Shown here: in pieces, positions 12,523 to 13,924 of the stretch
Layout of the letters: every line of letters starts with the position of its first letter
How positions within the stretch are numbered: the first letter of the stretch is position 1
NCBI RefSeq assembly: GCF_020091585.1
Contig: NZ_CP083582.1
Span: forward strand, 3,906,001-3,970,000
Length of the DNA: 64,000 nucleotides
Direction: 5' to 3'
Source of the DNA: Kovacikia minuta CCNUW1
GTDB lineage: Bacteria; Cyanobacteriota; Cyanobacteriia; Leptolyngbyales; Leptolyngbyaceae
Notes under the pieces: model-generated
The model's database searches: none
What the model was told of the DNA's origin: nothing
What the model saw: the letters and a program-made list of their open reading frames with translations, nothing else
Translations under genes and position numbers: made by a program

Positions 12523-12564
12523 ATACTAAATTAAATAGTCTTCGTGGCACATTAACATCCTGTA
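12523..12564 (+). repeat. MITE-like repeat family 1, copy B, left part
   Basis: The sequence from ATACTAAATTAAATAGTC to ACATCCTGTA matches the first 42 bases of the intact copy at 34635-34735. It is then interrupted by the IS110 element, and the remaining part resumes at 13864. Confidence 0.8.
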
Positions 12565-12681
12565 GCGATTGTCTTGGGTGTCAAGGGGTTGAGGAACAAC
12601 AGTTCACCTAAAAACGCCCAAGAGAAAGCGACAAACCGGAGGAGGGTTTGCGTGTCAGGGAGTGGAATGAAGGTGGACAAA

Positions 12682-13617
12682 CTAAGCAGGAGTTTGCCAG
12701 AGCGTGTTGTCGCGAATCATGGCATTGAGAATGACCAGAAGCTTGCGGATACAGGCAACGAGGGCAACAGGTTTAGGTTTGCCTTTTGAGAGCAAGCGTT
12801 GATAGAAGTCTCGAATGACAGGGTTGTGACGAGTGGCAACCAGAACTGCCATATACAACCCACAACGAACGCGAGTGCGTCCTCCAGAAATCCTGCGTTT
12901 GCCTTTGTGTTTGCCACTGTCCTGGTTGAGGGGCGCGACGCCGACCAAACGAGCAATCTGTTTTTCGTTGAGCTTGCCGAGTTCGGGAAGTTCCACCAAA
13001 CACAGAGCGGCAGTGAGGGGACCAATGCCCTTCACCGATTGCAAAATCTGGTCTTTGCGTTGCCAATCGGCTTGCTGTTGACCGAGAGTTTGAATCTGCT
13101 CATTCAAGGCATCGAGGCGTTGCGCTAAGTGTTTGAGATGCTCTTCGATGTCGGGTTGCACGGTTTGTGAGGCACGCGCTAAGCGATTCTTCTCTGCCAC
13201 TTGGATTTCGACCAATTGCTGACGGCGGTGCATCAGGTCACTGAGTTGTTGTGCGATTGGGGCAACGACGGCTTGCGGTTGCAGGTTCACACTTTGAGCA
13301 AAGCGAGCAATGACTTCGGCATCAATTCTGTCGGTCTTCGCTTTGCCTAAAGCAATGGCGAATCCCTTGACTTTTCGAGGGTTGACGACGGCAACAGCAA
13401 TCGTAGCGTTGTGCAATCCCACAACAACGGTTCGTTCCAATCCACCCGTCGATTCGAGCACCACTAAGTGCACTGACATTTCTTGAAGTTGTTCAATCAG
13501 GCTTTGCACTCCTGCCTCGCTGTTGGGCAACTGTAAGCTCAACCCCTGCGGCAGGATGTACACATCCAGTGTCTCTTTACTGACATCAATCCCAACCCAT
13601 ATCTTTTCAGGTGTCAT
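12682..13617 (-). CDS. IS110 family transposase
   Basis: A 311-residue DEDD/serine transposase of the IS110 family. The N-terminal RuvC-like domain starts [16 protein letters not shown] (first Asp at residue 10) and continues with [11 protein letters not shown] (Glu) and [16 protein letters not shown] (Asp pair). The C-terminal Tnp_20-type domain contains [18 protein letters not shown] and [13 protein letters not shown], where the serine is the probable nucleophile. The length is typical and no lesion is visible, so the element may be active. Members of this family recombine DNA guided by a bridge RNA from a non-coding end. Here the longer non-coding end is upstream of the gene, as in the IS110 (not IS1111) group. 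Confidence 0.95.
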
Positions 13618-13863
13618 CGTTTATGCTGAGGTAAGGTTTTGTTGTCCCTTTGACCACTCGTCCTTGCGAATGCGAGATCTCACTCTCCGGCGATCGTTCG
13701 AGTTTGCGTCTTAGGGCAAGTGGCGTGGCTCCGAGCGCTACCAATCGGTGTCAAGCACCAGGGGCAATCTGGCTTGCCACGCCTTCTTTAACTTACAGGC
13801 ACCCACGCTACGCAACGATGTTTCTTTCACCTTAGGGGCGTCGGGTTACCTTCCCTCAACATA
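13618..13863 (-). ncRNA. Candidate bridge-RNA region of the IS110 element
   Basis: This 246-base non-coding left end lies upstream of the transposase, where IS110-group elements encode their bridge RNA. Read in transposase orientation, it contains ACGCCCCT (complement at about 13832-13839), identical to the left flank of the insertion site (AACGCCCCT). About 38 bases later it contains CCTGTAAG (complement at about 13792-13799), the reverse complement of the right flank (CTTACAGG). Opposite orientations are what left and right target guides of a bridge RNA should show. The structure and donor guides could not be established by eye. Confidence 0.4.
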
Positions 13864-13924
13864 CAAGGGGCGTTTGGCCAAACGCCCCTACCCGATCGGT
13901 CGCGTTTTCAATTCAAATTGGTAT
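13864..13924 (+). repeat. MITE-like repeat family 1, copy B, right part
   Basis: This part continues the repeat interrupted at 12564, from AAGGGGCG through the palindrome GGCGTTTGGCCAAACGCC to TTCAAATTGGTAT. It ends 11 bases before the stop codon of the neighbouring metallopeptidase gene. Confidence 0.8.

Follow-up and report, generated by a model that had tools for sequence, protein, structure and literature searches.

A predicted bridge RNA with a duplicated target hairpin in an IS110-group element of Kovacikia minuta

In the 64,000-nucleotide stretch of the Kovacikia minuta CCNUW1 genome analyzed here (the window), a palindromic repeat is interrupted by an element of the IS110 family, and the locus raises the question of how such an element finds its site. 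An earlier note on this DNA proposed a programmed insertion, directed by two guides in the element's own left end. The reading that we favor, with a probability of roughly 0.87, is that of an active-looking IS110-group element that would move under the guidance of a bridge RNA, the target hairpin of which appears to have been duplicated within the element's clade. Such guidance is argued for by 17 insertion junctions, empty sites with a single CT and the choice of the CGCCCCTAC arm in 7/7 cases, together with covariation between guides and targets, covariation in the stems of two hairpins (H1 and the extra hairpin H2), a donor loop match and a promoter across the joined ends (Table 1).

Table 1. 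Features of the element, its flanks and its predicted RNA (window positions)
Feature	Position	Strand	Basis or remark
IS110-group element between two CT core copies	12566..13865	-	1300 bp; 17 genome copies
Core dinucleotide, right junction	12564..12565	+	AG on +, CT on transposase strand
Core dinucleotide, left junction	13866..13867	+	CT on transposase strand at 13867-13866
Split palindromic repeat, one half	12523..12565	+	flank matches, empty copies
Split repeat, other half, containing palindrome AGGGGCGTTTGGCCAAACGCCCCTAC	13866..13924	+	flank matches, empty copies
-35 box TTGACA, right end	12579..12584	-	part of TTGACA-17-TATGTT across circle junction
IS110 transposase (recombinase), 311 aa	12682..13617	-	Pfam PF01548/PF02371
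H3, putative donor-binding hairpin	13656..13703	-	loop matches right end in L201, L206
Right donor guide AUUCGCAAG (predicted)	13671-13663	-	H3
Left donor guide (predicted)	13697-13690	-	H3
H2, extra target-loop-type hairpin	13723..13782	-	H2-only model R3; covarying pairs
H2 guide-like arms	AUUGCCCCU 13768-13760; GGUAG 13742-13738	-	position in H2
H1, target-binding hairpin of predicted bridge RNA	13797..13851	-	consensus fold of 7 sequences
Right target guide GUAG (13811-13808) with 5' extension GUUGC	13808..13816	-	3' arm of H1 loop
Left target guide ACGCCCCU	13834..13841	-	matches left flanks; H1 internal loop
-10 box TATGTT, left end	13858..13863	-	part of TTGACA-17-TATGTT

The element, its copies and their insertion sites

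The recombinase carries the DEDD_Tnp_IS110 and Transposase_20 domains (PF01548 and PF02371; 88.8 and 70 bits, with cut-offs of 29 and 21.3), and matches the structures of IS621 (8wt6, E=3.8e-33) and of ISCro4 from the IS110 group (9t56, E=7.2e-32; the protein alone was compared). Going by the catalytic residues of IS621, we take D11, E55, D96, D99 and S234 to be its likely DEDD and serine residues. The non-coding stretches around the gene measure 248 bases upstream and 116 downstream, which gives the long left end of the IS110 group, and by its domains, left end and CT core the element is placed, on sequence, in the IS110 family, IS110 group. The two domains and the 1300 bp between the CT cores agree with the earlier description of a repeat split by a 1.3-kb IS110 element.

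The host genome (8.56 Mb, three contigs) contains 17 near-identical copies, of which 16 are 1300 bp long and one is 1301 bp. When these are read in one orientation, CCCT stands to the left and CTAC to the right of every copy around the CT core, such that the core first pointed out at both junctions of the window copy recurs in 17/17 copies; empty repeats have one CT. The left flank reads CGCCCCT in 16/17 copies, the exception being L017 (CTGCCCT, within a different left flank, ACCTGCCCT), and both this motif and the right CTAC (17/17) are beyond chance. The base following CTAC varies (C in six copies, A in seven, and G in four), ACGCCCCT occurs at 9/17 sites, and CTACAGG, the right flank of the window copy in transposase orientation, occurs at 3/17.

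Ten copies lie inside the palindromic repeat, which has a central palindrome and MITE-like ends such as ATACCAA/TTGGTAT, with L001-L004 at one end and L005-L009 and L016 at the other. The other seven lie outside it, six of them at CGCCCCTAC and one at a near form; here, L012 and L013 have similar flanks on both sides, L014 and L015 mainly on the right, and L010 and L017 on the left, with L011 as the remaining copy. Sites matching CGCCCCTAC number 287 in the genome, compared with 103 for the reversed control pattern. Among ten empty repeats read, CGCCCCTAC is present at both palindrome ends in four, at one end in five, and at neither in one (L029). In seven of the ten occupied repeats the uncut arm is GTAAGGGCG, i.e., CGCCCTTAC, and in all seven the element sits in the other arm, CGCCCCTAC; the window copy belongs to the three occupied repeats with uncut arm GTAGGGGCG. 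With one guide set behind them, the 17 natural insertions would show what this bridge RNA accepts in nature: on raw counts, taken irrespective of the supply of sites, the accepted site is CGCCC-CT-AC with one exception, and nothing further is evidently required.

The repeat itself (L021-L030; 34635-34740 in the window) recurs many times on contigs C1 and C2. The first 100 CGCCCCTAC sites listed include several pairs in opposed orientation, spaced by 19 or about 56 bases, and the latter spacing suggests another inverted repeat family. An older, decayed copy of the element in the same genome (L018, G000 C1:4350416-4351450) has a different left guide, UCCCGCCCCU, which matches its own left flank, ACCCGCCCCT.

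Guides, donor hairpin and junction promoter

Folding of the single sequence is unremarkable (z of -1.87, with 9/200 shuffles equally good). The earlier note had looked to homologues for a conserved RNA fold, and among these, the H1 and H2 stems do covary: both sides change in 11/24 pairs, versus 3.2 in shuffles (0/500 as high) and 1 to 5 pairs in slid controls, a count somewhat favored because the structure was derived from the same sequences. The outer stem of H1 contributes both-side changes in 4/7 pairs (11 sequences).

A left guide, ACGCCCCU, in the H1 loop is supported by comparison across elements. As had been noticed from the window alone, the left end contains ACGCCCCT, identical to the left flank of the window copy, and the H1 arm tracks its target beyond this copy. 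In permutation tests on a set of 13 H2-bearing elements, the left arm of H1 is associated with its own left target at p=5e-5 in both settings with the core included, and at p=9.5e-4 and 2.5e-4 with the core trimmed, values that are not strict probabilities because the elements share ancestry; the donor arm, as a control, gives p=0.32, 0.91, 0.36, and 0.82. Excluded from this set were L095 (left flank missing), L161 (left flank decayed), and the repeat copies L155, L156, L157, L160, L175, and L176, and arms, targets and column groups were chosen by eye.

On the same kind of evidence, the right guide is the GUAG in the same H1 loop as the left guide. The 3' arm of this loop, GUUGCGUAG, allows 4-7 nt of pairing at 17/17 sites. 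Across 19 elements with a readable right end, the window copy among them (missing letters of the L095 guide set to A), contiguous matches between right guide and right target sum to 104, compared with 64.6 when shuffled (p=5e-5), and over the 12 distinct guides to 65, compared with 42.6 (p=3.5e-4); the fit is poor in L201 (3 bases) and L206 (2 bases). In relatives, the right guide position changes together with the right target (CTTCTCC with GGAGAAG, CTAAATC with GAUUUAG). It is therefore very improbable that the guide matches arise by chance and that the recombinase recognizes the repeat by protein-DNA contact: although the targets are short and C-rich, guide and target switch together on both sides of the core in relatives, and seven of the element's own insertions lie outside the palindromic repeat, at CGCCCCTAC or, in one case, its near form.

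Less probable still is the right guide originally proposed, CCTGTAAG, with a target of ACGCCCCT/CTTACAGG. This stretch agrees in all 8 bases with the repeat copy near 34635, and CTTACAGG arms are found in 4/10 of the empty repeats read. CTTACAGG had been assigned as the right flank because it was taken from that repeat copy, but the comparison does not give the target, as the arm there is CGCCCTTACAGG and the right flank in the window is CTACAGG. With CTTACAGG at 0/17 sites and ACGCCCCT at 9/17, counts that answer the refuting condition set in the earlier note, the assignment is refuted by the 17 junctions, and CGCCCTTAC arms are passed over in 7/7 occupied repeats having one. In the 7-sequence consensus fold, CCTGTAAG (13799-13792) has its start within the H1 closing stem (3' strand) and extends beyond the hairpin, and so lies outside the loop, whereas the canonical position covaries with the right targets; at each of the 17 sites, its two core bases alone would pair. 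It thus matches an arm that the element does not target, since the CTTACAGG arm, though common, holds 0/17 insertions. What stands of the proposed programmed insertion into the palindromic repeat is a predicted bridge RNA, the left guide, for which ACGCCCCT recurs at other copies' sites, and the CT core.

The donor hairpin H3 is supported by two relatives, L201 and L206, where the loop ACAAUCGCU equals their own right end, ACAATCG-CT, in 9/9 bases; the right end of L201, L204, L205, and L095 is TTGACTTTCAAGACAATCG-CT. In the window copy, the donor loop ACGAUCGCC agrees with the right end in 7/9 bases, and one of the two mismatches is a wobble. Paired by hand, AUUCGCAAG can pair with CTTGTAT if two bases are bulged, and in the available text on IS621 the right donor guide likewise has two bases flipped out (PMC11208158). 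When the two ends of the element are joined as sequences, they form TTGACA, 17 bases, and TATGTT, while the linear stretch 12500-13930 contained no promoter-like site. A promoter across the joined ends is described for the circular form of IS621, as far as the available text goes (PMC11208160), and here we would expect transcription to begin around 13851, where H1 starts. The element accordingly presents a covarying target loop, a donor loop complementary to the joined ends, and, on sequence, a junction promoter, the features by which a bridge RNA was to be recognized.

In the mechanism that we favor, the element would exit as a circle, the joined ends of which form a promoter transcribing the left end into the bridge RNA. 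H1 would pair with CGCCC-CT-AC, the left guide with the bottom strand and the right guide GUAG with the top strand, H3 would pair with the joined ends of the element itself, and strand exchange by the recombinase would take place at CT. Where the palindrome of a repeat has CGCCCCTAC at its end on both strands, two sites in opposite orientation would be available. With the target hairpin duplicated in the clade, the order in the RNA would be target hairpin, target-type hairpin, and donor hairpin. What sequence comparison establishes is the ends, the core, the sites, the H1 guides, and the conservation of H2 as a paralogue of the target hairpin; that the RNA is transcribed and pairs, that circles form, and what H2 might do we infer.

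Origin and possible roles of the extra hairpin

The second target-type hairpin, H2, was missed in the earlier note. Both sides change in 6/13 of its pairs. Relatives at about 36-53% protein identity have one hairpin ahead of the donor hairpin, and among 48 hit stretches read by eye, 18 have H1 and H2 (with H2 shortened in L175 and L176) and 30 have a single hairpin (poorly formed in L200). Matches to a model of H1 and H2 (E of 4e-11 or better) occur in 12/388 cyanobacterial genomes. When the H2-only model, R3, was run over 22 loci with one target hairpin (59,484 bases), 10 of the 12 hits up to E 1 fell on the relatives' target hairpin, in 10/22 loci, and two fell elsewhere; the scores on these hairpins are individually weak (E of 0.012 to 0.84). 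Over ten H2-bearing loci, the same model gave 17 hits, comprising H2 in ten, H1 in six, and one antisense to H2.

In a tree of 36/50 candidate rows (the rest had too little or no transposase found), the H2-bearing rows (7/36) are split off by a single branch (90/89; recovered in 88% of bootstrap trees) and nest within the others; for the same reason, only 7/15 H2-bearing rows are represented. Given the R3 matches, the stem covariation, the variation profile described below, and the tree position, H2 is best read as a conserved duplicate of the target hairpin, and as far as tested it would have been gained once. Many H2-bearing relatives are decayed. No further H2-bearing element was found in the G262 and G194 families, and of ten further loci read, nine show no more than one target-type hairpin, the tenth, L209, being the H2-bearing L095 locus truncated at the end of a contig. 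Viral contigs contained no protein relative and no match to two H2 patterns, and there was no DNA match of the left end to plasmids or of the element to phages; plasmid proteins reach up to 52.6% identity. In another genome (G221), L206 516-1012 is a 497 bp relative that retains both ends, and with them the RNA region, but has lost most of its transposase; this shortened element may be non-autonomous.

Whether H2 also reads DNA was approached with the same 13 elements. Its left arm is associated with the left target at p=0.011 and 0.029 with the core, and at 0.043 and 0.51 without it (the last with the core trimmed and wobble disallowed), from which we lean only weakly toward a guide role. The left target fits H2 better than H1 in two elements (L165, 7.0 vs. 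4.0; L206, 6.5 vs. 6.0), equally in one, and worse in ten. H2 as the sole target loop was rejected, with a summed fit score of 69.5 compared with 85.5 for the H1 arm. On the right, the H2 arm could pair over 4-5 nt at the 17 own sites, and that of H1 over 4-7 nt, and the two hairpins cannot be told apart at these sites because both right arms could pair there. Of the seven H2-bearing elements with a readable right end, six have CTAC and the seventh (L206) has CTGC, which leaves little variation for the right arm of H2 to follow.

We put at about even odds that H2 is a structural hairpin, i.e., a duplicated target loop that now only helps the RNA to fold, binds protein, or replaces a 5' stem-loop of the IS621 type, with H1 alone reading the target. 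The last two bases of its left arm are not the core CU in 9/13 elements, it tracks targets weakly, conservation is high in its apical stem and GGUAGC, and there is little space ahead of H1 for a 5' stem-loop. Against this, H2 retains the variation profile of a target loop (columns hand-chosen): its variable 5' arm scores 0.98 bits (H1, 0.94), the variable bases before GUAG 1.04 (H1, 1.10), and the constant GUAGC 0.22 in both. The better fit of the left target to H2 in L165 and, slightly, in L206 is also at odds with a purely structural role.

More tentatively, H1 and H2 may both read DNA, either alternatively, with two related addresses, or jointly, with two target-bound dimers per RNA. The common variation profile, the possible pairing of the H2 right arm, and the similarity between H2 and H1 arms (p=0.010 and 0.012; control, 0.29) are consistent with this, while the p=0.51 for H2 and the equal or better fit of H1 in 11/13 elements speak against it. 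According to the available text of PMC11208158, the target and donor loops of one IS621 complex come from two RNA molecules and work separately, and an extra target loop need not block assembly because of this arrangement. It is conceivable, though doubtful, that the clade's bridge RNAs carry two functional target loops in tandem, which would let one RNA read either of two related addresses or engage two target sites simultaneously; if so, the two opposed CGCCCCTAC sites of some palindrome copies would be an example of jointly bound targets.

Relation to known elements

Much of what is predicted here is known from IS621, including a bridge RNA, a CT core, and insertion into palindromic repeats (PMC11208160 and PMC11208158, in their available text). 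The likeness extends to the location of the bridge RNA, here predicted, in a left end that precedes the recombinase gene, to a single internal loop with the guides for both sides of the target, and to a 4-nt right guide with a target ending in CTAC, UGC just 5' of the right guide, the two flipped-out bases of the right donor guide, and the circle-junction promoter. However, the IS621 RNA is described there as a 5' stem-loop, one target loop, and one donor loop, and the layout differs here: no 5' stem-loop was seen, and a second target-type hairpin lies between the target and donor hairpins. The two elements also have different left targets, hosts, and protein sequences. In seekRNA-guided IS1111/IS110 elements, an RNA from the non-coding region likewise selects the target (PMC11187229, available text), but IS1111 members have their long non-coding region downstream of the gene, along with subterminal inverted repeats, whereas the long region here is upstream.

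A further comparison is with cyanobacterial IS110 relatives such as L168, L172, and L185, which have the same target and donor hairpins and similar end motifs, without H2. The literature searched, mostly outside subscription papers and bioRxiv preprints, contained no bridge RNA with two target loops, and we regard the duplicated target hairpin of this clade as new, since these relatives have one target hairpin and a donor hairpin. The duplication suggests a modular make-up in which target loops can be added, a point of direct relevance to the multi-target design of bridge recombinases, and an extra target-reading loop could widen how programmable systems find DNA.

In Rfam, the sole match up to E 1 was to tpke11, below threshold (24.2 bits; gathering 43), at 13840-13901; it spans the palindrome and the element end, and is probably due to chance. 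Two other IS110 lineages are present in the same genome (3 and 20 copies, 30-32% identity; L051-L060 and further places), and the left ends of L051 and L054 include guide-like stretches similar to the left flank of the respective element (ACCCAACCT; ATGCCCCT compared with TAAGCCCCT).
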